Shown: piece after piece, positions 213 through 64,000 of the stretch
Layout of the letters: each line of letters starts with the position of its first letter
How positions within the stretch are numbered: position 1 is the first letter of the stretch
Assembly (NCBI RefSeq): GCF_005116475.1
Contig: NZ_SWBO01000010.1
Coordinates: 62,001 to 126,000 of the forward strand
Direction of reading: 5' to 3'
DNA from: Pedobacter cryotolerans
Lineage (GTDB): Bacteria > Bacteroidota > Bacteroidia > Sphingobacteriales > Sphingobacteriaceae
Length of the DNA: 64,000 nucleotides
Program-made: the position numbers and the translations under genes
Notes under the pieces: model-generated
Database searches by the model: none
What the model was told of the DNA's origin: nothing
What the model saw: only the letters and a program-made list of their open reading frames with translations

Positions 213-260
213 GTTGAAATGTTGGGAGGTTTGAAAGTTGGAATGTTTTAAAGTTGGAAG
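213..260. repeat. Degenerate tandem array, 8 bp period
   Basis: Six consecutive octamers can be laid out in register: GTTGAAAT, GTTGGGAG, GTTTGAAA, GTTGGAAT, GTTTTAAA, GTTGGAAG. Each starts with GTT and ends in a purine-rich tail. The array sits between the gcvP promoter and the toxin gene. It belongs to the class of short degenerate arrays seen in many gaps of this window. The remaining sequence in 131-336 shows no gene. Confidence 0.7.
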
Positions 261-10522: not shown

Positions 10523-10557
10523 TCTCAAATCTCATATCTAACATCTCAAATCTTATG
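10523..10557. repeat. Degenerate tandem array, 7 bp period
   Basis: Five heptamers in register: TCTCAAA, TCTCATA, TCTAACA, TCTCAAA, TCTTATG. The last one contains the first possible ATG of the DoxX gene. Confidence 0.75.
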
Positions 10558-12764: not shown

Positions 12765-12795
12765 ATGGGAGTAGTGAGATGTGAGATTTGAGACG
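12761..12795. repeat. Degenerate tandem array, 7 bp period
   Basis: Heptamers in register from the permease stop codon onward: ATAGATG, GGAGTAG, TGAGATG, TGAGATT, TGAGACG. The last three closely resemble units of the array at 41804. Confidence 0.65.
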
Positions 12796-12842
12796 AAGTT
12801 TGCCAACAATAAAACAATTTATCAATACAACAATTTTTGAAT

Positions 12843-13340: not shown

Positions 13341-13341
13341 T

Positions 13342-13373
13342 GGGAAGTTGGATAGTTGGGAAGTTGAAAGAAG
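13342..13373. repeat. Degenerate tandem array, 8 bp period
   Basis: Four octamers directly after the aroK stop: GGGAAGTT, GGATAGTT, GGGAAGTT, GAAAGAAG. The aroK/thioesterase gap holds little else. Confidence 0.65.
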
Positions 13374-19984: not shown

Positions 19985-20072
19985 GTCTTAGCATCTCGCT
20001 AATACCTTATTGTGTTTTTTTTGTTTAGTCTTAGCGAGACGCTAAGACTAGGGGGGACGCTAAGACTAGGGG
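19985..20072. repeat. REP-like palindromes after the AsmA gene
   Basis: TAGTCTTAGCG-AGA-CGCTAAGACTA (20026-20050) is a perfect 11 bp stem. Its half GACGCTAAGACTAGGGG is repeated directly at 20038-20054 and 20056-20072. An inverted, nearly identical copy, GTCTTAGCATCTCGCTAA, lies at 19985-20002. The cluster lies between two convergent genes and may also stop transcription. Confidence 0.7.
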
Positions 20073-23701: not shown

Positions 23702-23920
23702 CGACTTTGGAGGAATTTCAATGAGTACCTTCAAAAATGAGATTCTTCGTTGCACTTCCATTGACGTTATTTATTAAGTATCTATAAATCAATTTTTTTT
23801 AAAAAAAATAAGCTCCTTGTTTTGTCATTTCCTGCCTGCCGGCAGGCAGGCGACTTCGGAGGAATCTCATAGTTGGAATACAAAATTCGAGATCCTTCGC
23901 TGCACTCTGGATGACAAAAC
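23702..23920. repeat. Two hairpin-type dispersed repeats with a nested 20 bp palindrome
   Basis: Unit 1 (23702-23768) and unit 2 (23851-23916) each start CGACTT(T/C)GGAGGAAT(T/C)TC and end GAGAT(T/C)CTTCG(T/C)TGCACT, about 70 bp each, with an inverted GAGGAATCTC/GAGATCCTTC core. Directly before unit 2 lies the perfect palindrome CCTGCCTGCCGGCAGGCAGG (23831-23850). It appears cleanly inserted into GTCATTTC|GACTTCGG. No gene lies in 23681-23981. Confidence 0.65.
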
Positions 23921-34852: not shown

Positions 34853-34870
34853 TTTTAGTTTAGTTTTTGG

Positions 34871-34949
34871 TTGATAGTTTATAGTCAATGGTTTATAGTC
34901 AATTGTGCTTACGCAAATAGGCTATATGCTATCAACCATCAGCTATCAT
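34871..34949. repeat. Two facing 7 bp arrays between isomerase and Gfo/Idh genes
   Basis: The left array: TTGATAG, TTTATAG, TCAATGG, TTTATAG, TCAATTG (34871-34905). The right array is inverted: CTATATG, CTATCAA, CCATCAG, CTATCAT (34922-34949). Together they can fold back (TTGATAG against CTATCAA) around a 16-base centre. Confidence 0.75.
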
Positions 34950-34953
34950 CATT

Positions 34954-39774: not shown

Positions 39775-39776
39775 AC

Positions 39777-39832
39777 GCGTTTGGCGTTAAGCGTTTTGCG
39801 TTTCGCTTCCCGCTTATCGCTTAACTCAAAAC
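39777..39832. repeat. Degenerate tandem array, 7 bp period
   Basis: Eight heptamers fill the gap to yebC: GCGTTTG, GCGTTAA, GCGTTTT, GCGTTTC, GCTTCCC, GCTTATC, GCTTAAC, TCAAAAC. They begin two bases after the stop codon. Confidence 0.8.
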
Positions 39833-39841
39833 AATGTAAAA

Positions 39842-41024: not shown

Positions 41025-41801
41025 TTACTTCTTGTGGCTAAATAACCAAGGCATTAACTCTGGTTCGGCAAAAGTGCTATCCCAACTGTTATGGTTTGCT
41101 TTTGGGTAAATGGTGTATTTGGGCTCATAACCTAACTTTCTTAATTCTCTAAAAACACTATAGGTTAACTGCGGATTTACCACATCATCTAAGCCACCAT
41201 GAAAAATCCAAAGTGGTACGTTTTTGTATTTTTTAGCATTTGCAGGATTATCGCCGCCACAAATTGAAAATGCTGCAGCAAAAGTTTTTGGTTTACGTCT
41301 TAAAATTTCAAAAGTTCCCATGCCACCCATAGATAAGCCTCCAACGTAAATTTGGTTTTGCGCTACAAAAGGTTTTTTGAAAAATTCATCGGTAAACTGT
41401 AAAACCAAATTCATTGATTTGGTAGGTTCGCCACCTTTTACAAAATTGAAAAAACGCTTATTACTTACCGTTTCAATTTCTACATTTGCCCAATAACTAT
41501 CTTCGGCACATTGTGGAAATATAACAATTGACGGGTGGTTTTTACGATAGTTATCAGATAGAAATAGCTTTCCTCCATTTGCTAATTGCTTTTGGTTGTC
41601 GTTACCACTCTCGCCTCTGCCATGCAAAAACAAAACCACAGGGTATTGTTTTTTGGCATCAAAATTTTCTGGATATAAAATTCTGTACTTTAAGGTATCA
41701 GTACCGAGTACGAAACTTTGCTTTTCATATTTGCTTAAATCTTGCGCAAAGGCTGATGAAATGAGTAAACAAAGCGTGAATATGATTGATATTTTTTTCA
41801 T
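41025..41801 (-). CDS. Exported alpha/beta hydrolase, esterase-like
   Basis: The ATG at 41801 opens a signal peptide (KKISIIFTLCLLISSAFAQ); in-frame codons before it are heptamer-array sequence. A 258-residue esterase with YPVVLFLHGRGESGND (oxyanion side), the nucleophile in YVGGLSMGGMGTFEI (GxSxG), Asp in LWIFHGGLDDVVNP and His in YPKANHNSWDSTF. The fold is the poly-3-hydroxybutyrate depolymerase/feruloyl esterase type. Last gene of the minus-strand glucan locus; it may remove acyl groups from the glycan. Substrate is not known. Confidence 0.88.
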   Translation of the reverse strand: MKKISIIFTLCLLISSAFAQDLSKYEKQSFVLGTDTLKYRILYPENFDAKKQYPVVLFLHGRGESGNDNQKQLANGGKLFLSDNYRKNHPSIVIFPQCAEDSYWANVEIETVSNKRFFNFVKGGEPTKSMNLVLQFTDEFFKKPFVAQNQIYVGGLSMGGMGTFEILRRKPKTFAAAFSICGGDNPANAKKYKNVPLWIFHGGLDDVVNPQLTYSVFRELRKLGYEPKYTIYPKANHNSWDSTFAEPELMPWLFSHKK

Positions 41802-41803
41802 TG

Positions 41804-41880
41804 TTTTGAGATTTGAGACATTAGATGTGAGATTTGAGACCTTCCGCCTTCCAACCCTCAACCTTTTGCCTTATTTAACC
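41804..41880. repeat. Eleven-unit degenerate array, 7 bp period, between esterase and GH3 genes
   Basis: In one register: TTTTGAG, ATTTGAG, ACATTAG, ATGTGAG, ATTTGAG, ACCTTCC, GCCTTCC, AACCCTC, AACCTTT, TGCCTTA, TTTAACC. The unit type switches halfway without loss of phase. The last units run through the bglX stop codon (41871-41873). Confidence 0.8.
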
Positions 41881-54068: not shown

Positions 54069-56969
54069 TTAAAGTTCCATTAAAAACTCAGTTAAGTTTT
54101 TATCGTGAGGTACTTCTAACTTTTTACGCAAACGATAGCGTCTAATTTCTACACCCCTGAGAGAGATATTTAGTAGAGACGCCATTTCTTTACTGCTCAT
54201 GTTCATGTGTAAATAGGCACAAAGTTTTAAGTCGTTTGGAACCAGATCTGGGTGATTTGCTTTTAGCTTTTTGAAGAAACTTTCATGAGCTTCATTGAAA
54301 CTGTTCTCAAATAAATTCCAATCTCGCTCATCATTCATTCCATCATCTATTACCTTTTGGATTTTTCTTAATTGGTCTTCAGATAGCTTCTTTCCATTCT
54401 CATCTTTTAACTTGTTCATCTCCTCACTTAACTTTTGAAGCAATTCGTTTTTATATACCAAACTCATTGCAGAATTAGCCAATTCTCTGTTTTTGCCGGC
54501 TAGTTCAGCTTGTAGTTTTTCGGTTTGTATTTTGATGATTTGTTTTTCAGTAGCCTCTGCTTCTTTTTTAAGAAATTCTTCTTTTTCTGTTTGAAGTTTG
54601 TCGGTAATCTTTTGCTGATCTTTCATCAGCTTTGCTTCGTAAATACGCTTTCCTGCGTAAAGAGCAATAATGCCAATAATTACATAAAATGAAATAGCCC
54701 AATTACTACCATACCATGGAGGTAAAATCTTAAATTCTAATACTGTTATTTCGCTGATGATATTTTCATTTAGCTTGGCTCTAACTTTAAATCTGTAAGT
54801 ACCCTTAGTAAGGTTAGTGAAATCTTTTTGCGTTGCCGAGCTCCAATCAGACCATTGGTTTGAATATCCTTCTAGGTAAAACTGGTATTTAACTTTTGCT
54901 TGTCGATAGTAGGGTAGTGCAAAAGAAATCCTAATGTTATTTCTACTAAATGGTATTTCAATTAAATCTTGTAAGCTCCCGTTTTCAGATAAAGTGCTGT
55001 ATTTGTCGGTAATATCCTCTACTTTTCTAATTAATACCGAGGGAAGTTTTGGATTTTGGCTTTGGTTATTTGATGTTGTGCTATTGTAAATCACAAAACC
55101 ATCATCAACGCTAATTAAATAAATCTTATTACTTATCTGACTAATGTTCTCATAGTATTGAACCATTCTGCCATCTAATATGCTAAAACGATTCGAGTCG
55201 ATTTCAATCTTCCCGGGTTCGGTTAAATGCACTAAGCTCATTTTACCATGGTTAATGAACCAGTATTTTTTAAAACCAGCGCTGATGATTTTATTTGATG
55301 TAGAAAAGCTCCCTAGTTTTTTGTTAAGCACATCGTATTTACTAAAGCGGTTGCTGATGTCATCGTACACTAAAAAACCATTATCTGATGAGAAAATAAG
55401 CTTATTCTCTACATTAAACATGTTGATGTTAAAACTGCTAGGTAAACCGTTTTTCTCATTGTAAAACTGTATGTTTTTGGCAGATTTTAAGTCGGAGCTT
55501 AAGGTTAATTTATATAATCCTTTATAAGCATGACTAACCCAAATATCGCCTTTATTGTCTTGCTCTACATACCTAGATGGTTCACCAAAACCTGAAATTT
55601 TATGACTAAATGCCCAGTTTCCAGCAGCATCTTTCTTAAATAAAACTAAGCCAGTATACGTTCCCTGAATAAGATAATTTGGGTTAGAATTGAGTTTTTT
55701 AATTGTCCATCCTCCGTTAATGGAAGAGGTTTTTTGCATTTGATCTCCGTTTATAATGAAGGAGCCATCGTTATGCCCACAAATAAGCTGGTTATCTATT
55801 AAGCTTAAATCCCAAACTTGGCCTTGTGAGTTTTGGATTAACCTAAAATCGAAATTGCTATTTAAGTTGCCATTTTCTGGTAACCACGGACTTACAAACA
55901 AACCTTGATTAGTGCCTAAATAAATCTTGTTTTTTACAATTAAGCTGGAGTAAACGGTTCCGAATTGGCCAGTTTTATCAAAATAAAAATACAGCGGCGA
56001 ATTAAGTTCGATTCTATCAATTCCATTATCTAAACCTGCCCAAAGATTTTGTTCATTGTCTGCATATAAACTGAGTATAGTATTGTTCTGTAAACCGCTT
56101 GATTTATTGATCCTTTGAACAATTTTACCGTTTTCATCAATGATAATTAAACCGTTTAAGATGGTTCCGTAAGCATAATATTTGTTGAGTAGTTTAACTC
56201 CATTGTTGAGTTGAAATGTTTTTAGAAAAGAATTAGCATCACTTGCAAAAGGAATAAATGTTACTCCATCATAAACGAAAAGCCCATTTTTACTAGTGCC
56301 AATAATATAGCCGCCATTTTTGTAGGGTAAGATAGATAACACCCCTGTTGTACCAATGATTTCACTGTTAGGTAACGCAACTAATTTGTTGTTTTTTAGT
56401 TCAAAAAGTCCTTTGCCTAAAATTTGAGCAAATATTTTATTGCCAACAGCGTGTGTAAAAAGAAATGTTCCGGGGCCTTTTACTACACTTACTTTTTGGT
56501 TTTCGTAAACATAAATGGTAGAAAATGTCTGAAAAATAACTTTCTTGCCTACGATATATATTTTCCAAACTTCATCGGTAATTTTATTTGGTTTTGGGAT
56601 GAGATTGATTAATGATTTATAAGTCAGGTGCTTATTTTGGTAACTCCAATAACCAAATTCACCGAAGCTACCTGTATAAATTAATCCATTTTCAGTCGCT
56701 ACGGCTCTTACAATTTGTCGATTTGGCATTTTATACTGTTGCCAATATTTACCGTCAAAGGTTAATAATCCTTCAGCATTGCCAAAATACATTACGCCAT
56801 TTTTATCTTTTGCAATAGACCAGTTTTGATTTCCCGATAGGTAAGAAGATTTTGGATAATTCTGCACATAAGGAACTCCTATGCTTTGAATATCATCGGC
56901 AAAAAGTTTTCCTGAAAAAAGTAAAAGAGCGAAAAGAAGGTGAAAATATTTAAAGGATTTGTTTTTCAT
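54069..56969 (-). CDS. Membrane one-component regulator: beta-propeller, Y_Y_Y, LuxR-type HTH
   Basis: A 966-residue protein: signal peptide (to about 24); two-component-regulator propeller repeats over about 30-650 (WSIAKDKNGVMYFGNAEGLL, ILSLYADNEQNLWAGLDNGI); a Y_Y_Y domain (VKYQFYLEGYSNQWSDWSSA); one membrane helix (WAISFYVIIGIIALYAGKRI); a coiled coil of about 80 residues; and a C-terminal LuxR-like HTH (LKLCAYLHMNMSSKEMASLL NISLRGVEIRRYRLRKKL). No kinase or receiver domain is present, so the periplasmic sensor must act on the DNA-binding end directly. It probably controls the adjacent susC locus in response to a glucan oligosaccharide. Confidence 0.92.
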   Translation of the reverse strand: MKNKSFKYFHLLFALLLFSGKLFADDIQSIGVPYVQNYPKSSYLSGNQNWSIAKDKNGVMYFGNAEGLLTFDGKYWQQYKMPNRQIVRAVATENGLIYTGSFGEFGYWSYQNKHLTYKSLINLIPKPNKITDEVWKIYIVGKKVIFQTFSTIYVYENQKVSVVKGPGTFLFTHAVGNKIFAQILGKGLFELKNNKLVALPNSEIIGTTGVLSILPYKNGGYIIGTSKNGLFVYDGVTFIPFASDANSFLKTFQLNNGVKLLNKYYAYGTILNGLIIIDENGKIVQRINKSSGLQNNTILSLYADNEQNLWAGLDNGIDRIELNSPLYFYFDKTGQFGTVYSSLIVKNKIYLGTNQGLFVSPWLPENGNLNSNFDFRLIQNSQGQVWDLSLIDNQLICGHNDGSFIINGDQMQKTSSINGGWTIKKLNSNPNYLIQGTYTGLVLFKKDAAGNWAFSHKISGFGEPSRYVEQDNKGDIWVSHAYKGLYKLTLSSDLKSAKNIQFYNEKNGLPSSFNINMFNVENKLIFSSDNGFLVYDDISNRFSKYDVLNKKLGSFSTSNKIISAGFKKYWFINHGKMSLVHLTEPGKIEIDSNRFSILDGRMVQYYENISQISNKIYLISVDDGFVIYNSTTSNNQSQNPKLPSVLIRKVEDITDKYSTLSENGSLQDLIEIPFSRNNIRISFALPYYRQAKVKYQFYLEGYSNQWSDWSSATQKDFTNLTKGTYRFKVRAKLNENIISEITVLEFKILPPWYGSNWAISFYVIIGIIALYAGKRIYEAKLMKDQQKITDKLQTEKEEFLKKEAEATEKQIIKIQTEKLQAELAGKNRELANSAMSLVYKNELLQKLSEEMNKLKDENGKKLSEDQLRKIQKVIDDGMNDERDWNLFENSFNEAHESFFKKLKANHPDLVPNDLKLCAYLHMNMSSKEMASLLNISLRGVEIRRYRLRKKLEVPHDKNLTEFLMEL

Positions 56970-56983
56970 TTATAGCAAGCAGG

Positions 56984-57053
56984 TTGATAGATGATGGTTG
57001 ATAGCTAATAGTTGATGGTTTATAGATAATAGCTGATGGATAATGGTGGATAG
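56984..57053. repeat. Ten-unit degenerate array, 7 bp period
   Basis: In register: TTGATAG, ATGATGG, TTGATAG, CTAATAG, TTGATGG, TTTATAG, ATAATAG, CTGATGG, ATAATGG, TGGATAG. It starts 14 bases before the start codon of the sensor-regulator gene. Unit type is the same as at 34871. Confidence 0.85.
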
Positions 57054-57134
57054 TAGAAAATTTAAAGTTAGTAAAATGAAGATTATTTGTGCGAGTATTT
57101 TTAGCTAAATTAACTGCGAATATATCTTACCATT

Positions 57135-57488
57135 ATGGCATTTAAATTTGAAGAACTAAAAGTTTGGCAAATTTCGTTGTTATTAAGTGACGAAATTGAT
57201 GCGGCTACTAAATACTTTCCAAAAACTGAGCTATTTAGTTTGACTACTCAAATTAAAAAAGCTGCTGATTCTGTTAATTTAAATATCGCTGAAGGTTGCA
57301 TGGGACAATCCAAAGCGGAGTTTTCTAGGTTTTTAACCTATTCTGTTAGATCGGGACTAGAAGTTGTCAGTTGTTTGTTCATGGCTCGCAATAGAAATTA
57401 TATGCCTATCGAAAGGTTTAACTATTTTTATAACGAGTACGAACAACTGTGTAAGATGATTAATGCTCTAAAGAATTCCCTGAAATAA
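57135..57488 (+). CDS. Four-helix bundle protein (23S rRNA IVP / S23 type)
   Basis: A 117-residue helical protein with the family pattern FEELKVWQISLLLSDEID at the start, FSLTTQIKKAADSVNLNIAE G (the conserved q.rraa.Si..NiaEG), then FSRFLTYSVRSGLEVVSCLF and a last helix. Family members are found in rRNA intervening sequences or as free genes; here it is a free gene with no rRNA nearby. Function is unknown. It is flanked on both sides by 7 bp arrays. Confidence 0.9.
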   Translation: MAFKFEELKVWQISLLLSDEIDAATKYFPKTELFSLTTQIKKAADSVNLNIAEGCMGQSKAEFSRFLTYSVRSGLEVVSCLFMARNRNYMPIERFNYFYNEYEQLCKMINALKNSLK

Positions 57489-57511
57489 ATTCAAGAGCAC
57501 CGCGACCGCCC

Positions 57512-57539
57512 ATCAACTATTAACTATTAACCTTTCATA
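57512..57539. repeat. Short 7 bp array running into the trhO C-terminus
   Basis: ATCAACT, ATTAACT, ATTAACC, TTTCATA in register. The array crosses the trhO stop codon (57527-57529) and includes its final codons. Confidence 0.6.
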
Positions 57540-58459
57540 ACCACAGGCTGAGGCACTTTTACATAATATCCAGTACCATCGTAAGGGCGTTTACGTGGGT
57601 GTGTAGTACAGGCAACCGAACAACATCCTTGTAATTCGTCGCCACAGTTATCACATTGTGTAATGTGTTCATTGCACTCCGGATTAGCACAGTTGATCAT
57701 TTTTGGTGTTGTTGTACCACAGTTGTAGCAAACAGAAACAATTGTTGGATTTACAGAATTTACATCAACTGCAATTCTGTTGTCAAATACATAACATTTG
57801 CCTTCAAAATCTTTACCGCCAGCTTCTTTACCATATTTAATAATGCCGCCATGCAATTGGTAAACATCTGTAAAGCCATGGTGTAAAAGCAAAGCTGATG
57901 CCTTTTCGCATTTAATACCGCCAGTACAATAGGTCATTATTTTTTTGTCTTTGTACTGTGCCAAGGCATTTATCTGATCAGGAAAATCTCTAAAGTTATC
58001 GATATCTAAGGTTACTGCATTTTTAAACTTCCCTAAATTGTGTTCGTAATTAGAGCGAACATCTAGCACTACAACATCATCGCGATCTAGCATTTCGCTA
58101 AATTCTTTTGGCTCTAAATATTTTCCTGTTTCTTTATTTGGGTCGATGATAGTTGTATCTCTTAATCCAGAATGCACGATTTCTTCCTTGTAGCGACAAT
58201 GCATCTTGATAAAAGATGGCTCAGGAACTTCATCAATTTTAAATTCAGTTTTTGCGAAACGTTCATCGGCATGTATAGCTTGCATGTAAACTTCACAAGC
58301 TTCTTTGGTGCCAGAAACAGTTCCGTTTAAACCTTCTTCGGCAACTATAATTCTGCCTACCAAGCCTAAAGATTTACAAAAATTTAAGTGATCTGCTGCA
58401 AACTGTTCAGCATTTGCTATAGGAGCATAGCAATAATAGAGTAAAGTATTGTACATCAT
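57527..58459 (-). CDS. trhO: tRNA uridine(34) hydroxylase, rhodanese family
   Basis: A 310-residue YceA/TrhO protein: N-terminal UPF0176 domain (GRIIVAEEGLNGTVSGTKEA), central linker (FIKMHCRYKEEIVHSGLRD), rhodanese domain with VVVLDVRSNYEHNLGKFKNA and the active-site loop MTYCTGGIKCEKASALLLHH (Cys about 178). The C-terminal part is cysteine-rich (CYNCGTT, CANPECNEHITQCDNCGDEL, CCSVACTTHP) and probably binds zinc. It hydroxylates U34 of some tRNAs using oxygen. Single gene with its own -7 box. Confidence 0.94.
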   Translation of the reverse strand: MMYNTLLYYCYAPIANAEQFAADHLNFCKSLGLVGRIIVAEEGLNGTVSGTKEACEVYMQAIHADERFAKTEFKIDEVPEPSFIKMHCRYKEEIVHSGLRDTTIIDPNKETGKYLEPKEFSEMLDRDDVVVLDVRSNYEHNLGKFKNAVTLDIDNFRDFPDQINALAQYKDKKIMTYCTGGIKCEKASALLLHHGFTDVYQLHGGIIKYGKEAGGKDFEGKCYVFDNRIAVDVNSVNPTIVSVCYNCGTTTPKMINCANPECNEHITQCDNCGDELQGCCSVACTTHPRKRPYDGTGYYVKVPQPVVMKG

Positions 58460-63428: not shown

Positions 63429-64000
63429 ATGTTGCAAGACCAGATCACACAATATACAGCAGAAATAAATGCGTTTGATACTAAAAATGCAGATGAGCTG
63501 GAACAATTTCGTATTCGTTTTTTAGGTACAAAAGGCATTATTAAAGATATTTTTGATGAGTTTAAAGCCGTTTCTCCTGAAGAAAAAAGAACTTTAGGGA
63601 AAGTTTTAAACGAATTTAAGCAATTAGCCGAGGCAAAATATCAAGCTTTAAATGAACTAACGGAAAACTCTAAACTGCAAACTGAAAACTCCCAACTAGA
63701 CATGACTTTGCCTGGTGAGGGTTTTGAAGTTGGTGCTCGCCATCCTTTAGCTTTAGTGAGAAGAGAAATCATCGAGATTTTTAACAAACTAGGTTTTAGC
63801 GTGGCTGAAGGGCCAGAAATAGAAGATGATTGGCATAATTTCTCTGCATTAAACTTTCCAGAAGAACATCCGGCAAGAGATATGCAAGATACCTTCTTCA
63901 TTAAAAAAGCTGATAGCTCCCTCTCTACTGGAGAGGGTCGGGGTGAGGCTAAAGGTGATATCGCTCTACGTACACACACCTCTTCTGTTCAAGTTCGTAT
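63429..64000 (+). CDS. pheS: Phenylalanine-tRNA ligase alpha subunit, N-terminal part
   Basis: The gene runs off the right edge; 190 codons are visible. The coiled-coil N-terminal domain (MLQDQITQYTAEINAFDTKN, FRIRFLGTKGIIKDIFDEFK) leads into the catalytic core: ARHPLALVRREIIEIFNKLG FSV, EGPEIEDDWHNFSALNFPEE HPARDMQDTFFI and, after an unusual segment, LRTHTSSVQVR. The segment between FFIKK and LRTHTS is KADSSLSTGEGRGEAKGDIA, longer than the usual few residues. It is encoded by a palindromic repeat (63917-63948). The frame stays open through it. Confidence 0.95.
   Translation, partial: MLQDQITQYTAEINAFDTKNADELEQFRIRFLGTKGIIKDIFDEFKAVSPEEKRTLGKVLNEFKQLAEAKYQALNELTENSKLQTENSQLDMTLPGEGFEVGARHPLALVRREIIEIFNKLGFSVAEGPEIEDDWHNFSALNFPEEHPARDMQDTFFIKKADSSLSTGEGRGEAKGDIALRTHTSSVQVR
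63917..63948. repeat. Palindromic repeat inserted in frame within pheS
   Basis: CTCCCTCTC-TACT-GGAGAGGG followed by TCGGGGTGAGG. The stem is CCCTCTC (63919-63925) with GAGAGGG (63931-63937) and the G-rich tail is that of the stop-codon elements. It encodes SLSTGEGRGE within PheS. Confidence 0.75.

Follow-up and report, generated by a model that had tools for sequence, protein, structure and literature searches.

The degenerate heptamer arrays found in a 64,000-nucleotide stretch of the Pedobacter cryotolerans genome (contig NZ_SWBO01000010.1, positions 62,001 to 126,000; hereafter, the window) are probably the terminal inverted arms of small elements of the intervening sequence (IVS) type located outside rRNA genes, or gene-less derivatives of such elements. 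An element of this kind would measure about 0.5-0.6 kb and comprise a 5' heptamer arm, a gene for a pentamer-type S23p/IVP four-helix-bundle protein, and an arm of reverse-complement heptamers. The initial annotation of the window described arrays in which the period is conserved and the sequence is not. This contrast was confirmed across arrays (units TTGATAG, TGTGAGA, GTATCAA, GGGAACA, etc.), as was their non-chance character, but the earlier reading missed the inverted pairing around a PF05635 (S23p/IVP) gene, the gene-less remnants, and the dependence of the arrays on PF05635.

Results

The most regular array of the window consists of ten heptamers in strict register on the plus strand (56984-57053), namely TTGATAG, ATGATGG, TTGATAG, CTAATAG, TTGATGG, TTTATAG, ATAATAG, CTGATGG, ATAATGG, and TGGATAG. 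Columns 4, 5, and 7 are invariant and column 2 is constant in nine of the ten units, which agrees with the previous description of a ten-unit array having few fixed positions. The companion arrays named earlier were also recovered, with period 7 at positions 10523, 12763, 34877, 39777, 41805, and 57515 and with period 8 at 214 and 13341, and a further period-7 array was located at 63659; the 7-mer and 8-mer versions, already grouped together in the earlier reading, were judged to be the same kind of sequence (Table 1). Shuffled sequence yielding equally regular arrays had been named as the outcome that would overturn the observation. Dinucleotide shuffles of the intergenic DNA of the window gave 0.4 lag-7 segments, compared to the eight observed (approximately 20-fold more), one or two of which are weak or A/T-rich. 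A chance origin of the arrays is thus ruled out, and the suggestion that a process beyond plain drift is at work still stands. The wider census, based on sampled genome stretches and pattern searches, indicated that period-7 arrays are common and not uniformly distributed, as other 20-kb samples from array-bearing genomes were poorer than the window. A CRISPR array was also considered and rejected, given that such an array is made of identical repeats with unique spacers and cas genes, and the focal heptamers are contiguous, with no spacers. Besides the arrays, the window contains short GC-rich palindromes resembling REP sequences at 2484-2507 and 23830-23860 (CCGCCGCGGCGG and CCTGCCTGCCGGCAGGCAGG) and, at 20038-20072, a perfect tandem 18-mer (GACGCTAAGACTAGGGGG) beside an imperfect inverted copy (CTTAGCGAGACGCTAAG).

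Table 1. Positions in the window of the components of the focal element and of the other arrays.
Feature	Position	Strand	Remarks
5' arm (relative to the gene), degenerate TTGATAG array, ten units	56983..57053	+	Pairs with 57511-57533
Leader, 5' arm to gene	57054..57134	+	
Gene for 117-aa S23p/IVP four-helix-bundle protein (PF05635)	57135..57488	+	Profile match 9.9e-30
3' arm, reverse-complement heptamer array CCATCAACTATTAACTATTAACC	57511..57533	+	Overlaps stop codon of UPF0176 gene (57527-58459, minus)
8-base array, 16-bp consensus TTGAAAGTTGGAAGGT	214..260	.	
Single-arm array TCTCAAA/TCTCATA	10523..10554	.	Lag-7 scan and shuffles
Single-arm array GAGATGT/GAGATTT	12767..12797	.	Lag-7 scan and shuffles
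8-base array TGGGAAGT/TGGATAGT	13341..13370	.	
Gene-less hairpin, TTGATAG unit family, GTTGATAGTTTATAG ... CTATATGCTATCAAC	34870..34953	.	
Gene-less inverted arms, GCGTTTA unit	39775..39841	.	Gap upstream of yebC
Gene-less chimeric array, AGGTTGA-type 5' arm joined to TCTCANA-type 3' arm	41790..41871	-	Joined at AAGGTCTC
Single-arm array AACTGAA/AACTCCC	63659..63690	.	

The ten-unit array had been placed before a sensor-regulator gene, and that gene (54069-56969, minus strand) indeed starts 14 bp to its left; however, the array is also located 81 bp upstream of a plus-strand PF05635 gene, and the two sides of the latter are complementary, the 5' arm GGTTGATAGCTAATAGTTGATGG pairing with the 3' arm CCATCAACTATTAACTATTAACC. 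The encoded protein belongs to PF05635 (profile score of 103 bits compared to a curated cut-off of 33.8), and its nearest solved relative is 2gsc, a structure with five chains (sequence match E 8e-10). In the predicted RNA fold of the whole focal stretch (z -4.6), the arms are paired at the base and form the closing structure. The focal element therefore has the S23p ORF between stem-capable terminal inverted repeats that characterizes an IVS, but it lies between the UPF0176 gene and a two-component propeller gene and not inside an rRNA gene, so we refer to it as IVS-type and not as a 23S IVS.

Avd of diversity-generating retroelements has a fold related to that of S23p. A retroelement of this type was nevertheless rejected for the focal locus, since no reverse transcriptase adjoins the focal gene and many PF05635-bearing genomes lack RVT_1. 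The latter observation also eliminates dependence on reverse transcriptase in general, and this enzyme is not required for element movement. Phage carriage was considered as well, and a search of the phage collection returned no match.

Inverted arms are a general feature of PF05635 genes. All six of these genes in the P. cryotolerans genome are bracketed by inverted arrays, which are built on five different units. In a non-redundant set of 107 PF05635 genes, mostly from Bacteroidota, matching inverted arms were found around 77, whereas two control gene sets gave 7 of 107 each (Fisher 1.6e-34); arms were called when complementarity between the upstream and downstream flanks exceeded the 95th percentile obtained with mismatched pairs. 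Detectable arm pairing was missing in the remaining 30 of 107 genes, which may reflect degraded arms or low sensitivity. The best arm period was 7 or 14 in 66 of the 77 elements, 8 or 15 in nine, and 6 or 12 in two. Within the same genus, coverage by period-7 sequence reached 0.109 at distances of up to 200 bp from PF05635 genes and fell to 0.0074 at more than 1.6 kb; periods 6 and 8 were likewise elevated near these genes, whereas periods 5, 10, and 11 were not. Arm composition was strongly asymmetric, with G exceeding C in the 5' arm of 69 of the 77 elements and C exceeding G in two, and the reverse (C-rich, G-poor) in the 3' arm, so that scant G-C pairing is possible within each arm. Moreover, purifying selection acts on the PF05635 genes, with a median dN/dS of 0.07. 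At one locus (L097, G005:C3), the arms take a 6-mer form, the PF05635 gene lying between hexamer arrays, CTTAAC/CTCAAC upstream and GAGACT/GAGGCT downstream.

The units of the arms vary with the protein. Among elements at different sites, arm similarity climbed with protein identity, from 0.18 at <30% to 0.56 at 80-97%, and elements sharing a site and encoding divergent proteins (30-45% identity) had arm similarity at baseline. Judging from these comparisons, unit identity goes with protein clade and not with site. For example, the gap after a fadA-type thiolase gene is occupied by GTATCAA elements in some species, by TGTGAGA elements in others, and by AAGGAAC in another. The median arm-to-arm match score was 31 within an element and 22 between sister elements whose proteins are 60-70% identical, which demonstrates that the two arms change jointly. 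The arms could alternatively be protein-binding arrays read by an S23p ring, one unit per subunit, either on RNA or, in the manner of transposase end sites, on DNA, with arm pairing being secondary. The tracking of units with protein clade, the fixed spacing with few fixed bases, and the ring shape of the five-chain relative 2gsc are all in agreement with such a role, but clade tracking is also predicted by shared descent, a unit conserved across the family is absent, and the composition of the arms (5' G>C in 69 of 71) better suits a strand-specific RNA role. We therefore regard ring binding as a possible but rather doubtful explanation.

The elements are located mostly between genes read in the same direction. 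Both neighbors are encoded on the strand of the element in 92 of 104 cases, compared to 138 of 273 controls. At the focal site, relatives that retain both neighbors have either an empty gap of 126-279 bp or a filled gap of 668-904 bp. The orientation of the element gene matches that of UPF0176 in five genomes (G020, G047, G050, G059, and G065) and is reversed in the window, so that either the segment between the inverted arms has flipped or the elements were inserted separately. No direct movement event was seen among the genomes compared, and no target duplication was found between species, whose intergenic DNA is too diverged to define one. In other Pedobacter (L066, L068, and L070), the gap downstream of UPF0176 contains an unrelated short ORF, with a protein starting MELQTIKNKIYQIRNQKVILDFDLSALYETETRALKQAV, and for this reason the gap may be an insertion hot spot. 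It has been proposed by MacGregor (PMC4679880) that the TAACTGA repeats of Beggiatoaceae are regulatory sites, and the arrays described here could similarly be translational or transcriptional regulatory sites in intergenic DNA, with the S23p gene being incidental or a regulator itself. Arrays are often found just upstream of start codons, which is the placement reported for the TAACTGA repeats; nonetheless, regulatory sites would account poorly for inverted pairing around a single gene family, for the turnover of units between species at one site, and for the empty sites in relatives, making this proposal improbable.

The arrays depend on the presence of PF05635 in the genome. PF05635 genes occurred in 39 of 60 genomes of the genus, and from 760 kb sampled in each group, 13 strong period-7 arrays were obtained in bearing genomes (away from the sampled PF05635 loci) and none in lacking genomes. 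An array upstream of yebC was present in 28 of 37 bearing genomes and in one of 20 lacking genomes, and the TCTCANA family in 28 of 39 and none of 21, respectively (the genome of the window itself giving 19 matches), although these counts are not phylogenetically independent and the lacking genomes are partly clustered. Three genomes (G015, G048, and G073) with a yebC 91-97% identical to that of the window have neither PF05635 nor arrays, and Pedobacter genomes without PF05635 genes are essentially array-free. Because of this dependence, gene-less arrays are most simply seen as derivatives of gene-bearing elements. Several of them are back-to-back inverted arms (34870-34953 and 39775-39841 in the window; L227:15607), and the yebC position holds arrays of other units in most PF05635-bearing Pedobacter genomes. 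Gene-less chimeras of an AGGTTGA-type 5' arm and a TCTCANA-type 3' arm share the junction AAGGTCTC at unrelated sites, among them the window (41790-41871, minus strand), L248-L256, L260, L261, and L364:16678; at yebC, chimeras occur in ~16 species. The AGGTTGA and TCTCANA arms are not complementary and are unable to pair, which counts against our interpretation of the arrays as paired arms.

Plain replication slippage has also been invoked for repeats of this kind (PMC4679880; PMC4692102), in which case heptamer arrays would arise by polymerase slippage and then decay, the period corresponding to the polymerase contact length. In agreement with this, two close Nostoc plasmids (L189 and L234) have different numbers of 3' arm units at one site and little other difference nearby, and slippage probably contributes to unit number. 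Alone, however, it leaves unexplained the inverted second arm, the link to PF05635, and the absence of arrays from sister genomes without PF05635, and as a full account of the arrays it is highly improbable.

Armed PF05635 genes are not restricted to Pedobacter. They were found on cyanobacterial plasmids, from which the cyanobacterial elements were drawn, in Nostoc (GGGAACA), Picosynechococcus (AGGAGAT), Anabaena (GGTGACA), Stanieria, Geminocystis, and others, and on a plasmid of Gemmatirosa (Gemmatimonadota) with the 8-mer GGGCAGGA. In Azospirillum (L241), a PF05635 ORF lies inside the 23S rRNA gene (Rfam RF02541) and is flanked by AGAGGAC-type heptamers and their reverse complement; this is a classical IVS with the same ends as the intercistronic elements. 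Besides, PF05635 elements occur in cyanobacterial cas operons (L188, L193, and L237). The order cas6, S23p, cas4 is found in both Pseudanabaena and Anabaena, at one site and with different units, and in Pseudanabaena (L188) the nearest arrays have a single orientation, with inverted copies farther out. Since these genes bear heptamer arms like other copies, a simple reading is offered for IVP genes in cas loci, namely that they are inserted elements.

Discussion

The interpretation that we favor, that the arrays are arms of IVS-type elements, suggests how such insertions could persist in operons. Elements would be placed between co-transcribed genes, and in the mRNA of the operon their 5' arm (rich in G, poor in C) would base-pair with the 3' arm (rich in C, poor in G) to give a stem whose loop contains the ORF. 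By extension from rRNA IVSs, RNase III would cut the arm stem and each cistron would survive, so that an insertion between cistrons would be tolerated. Slippage may alter the number of units, while selection or a copying process would maintain the complementarity of the arms and not a particular unit, which would result in fixed spacing and free sequence. The probable target of the S23p protein is the stem or the DNA of the element, the spread of which the protein probably aids, and gene-less arrays would arise from elements by deletion or recombination.

In a broader and much more tentative extension, S23p might drive the movement or copying of a class of elements that lacks a transposase, recognizing paired arms by structure and not by sequence, rewriting units genome-wide, and underlying orphan heptamers (STRRs, TAACTGA, and GGGAATC) across bacteria. 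The IVS-type reading itself, which we hold as probable, would join four oddities described separately so far, namely rRNA IVSs and their protein, heptamer repeats with no assigned origin, IVP genes scattered in cas operons, and the fast-changing intergenic arrays of Bacteroidota. A bacterial repeat class of previously unexplained origin would be accounted for, with IVS-related elements in operons of several phyla, and the S23p family would gain a genomic role outside rRNA, making its function testable. These results also raise the question of what role a strongly constrained ring-type protein (dN/dS 0.07) plays for an element that conserves only end spacing and complementarity.

Comparison with known systems

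Although the initial annotation knew of no named family for the arrays, a close counterpart exists in the 23S rRNA IVS. In the open literature, to which the search was limited, the separate pieces have been described (PMC4679880, PMC4692102, PMC4990558, and PMC3936711), but heptamer arrays and S23p genes were not linked in any paper found. The IVS of Coxiella has a 28-bp terminal stem, is excised by RNase III, and contains GACAGAT heptamers whose number depends on the strain (PMC4990558), and heptamer repeats in the arms are thus shared by rRNA IVSs of Coxiella and, in our data, Azospirillum (L241). As in the 23S rRNA IVSs of Coxiella, Leptospira, and others, the stem formed by the terminal repeats of the elements described here has an S23p/IVP gene in its loop and heptamers in the arm; in contrast to those IVSs, the elements occupy intercistronic gaps of protein operons, with many copies and unit families per genome and with gene-less derivatives.

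The STRR heptanucleotides of cyanobacteria and the GGGGA(C/T)T/GGGAATC repeats of Nostoc and Xanthomonas are also intergenic tandem arrays of 7-mers (PMC4692102), and the PF05635 genes of Nostoc plasmids have GGGAACA/TGTTCCC arms, but those repeats were published as simple repeats of mostly perfect units with no gene partner (PMC4692102). The TAACTGA direct repeats of Beggiatoaceae, Cyanobacteria, and five Bacteroidetes are similarly intergenic heptamers, often beside start codons and patchy in the same phyla, and differ in having one fixed unit and no reported inverted partner or S23p gene (PMC4679880). The 23S_rRNA_IVP genes reported in cas loci, for which a link to CRISPR was considered (PMC3936711), belong to the same protein family as the cas-operon copies of the current study (L188, L193, and L237). 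Finally, an autonomous gene-bearing copy accompanied by many gene-less repeats is reminiscent of REP/RAYT and MITE systems; unlike these, the elements of the present study have no transposase, and their arms are degenerate tandem arrays with no fixed end sequence.
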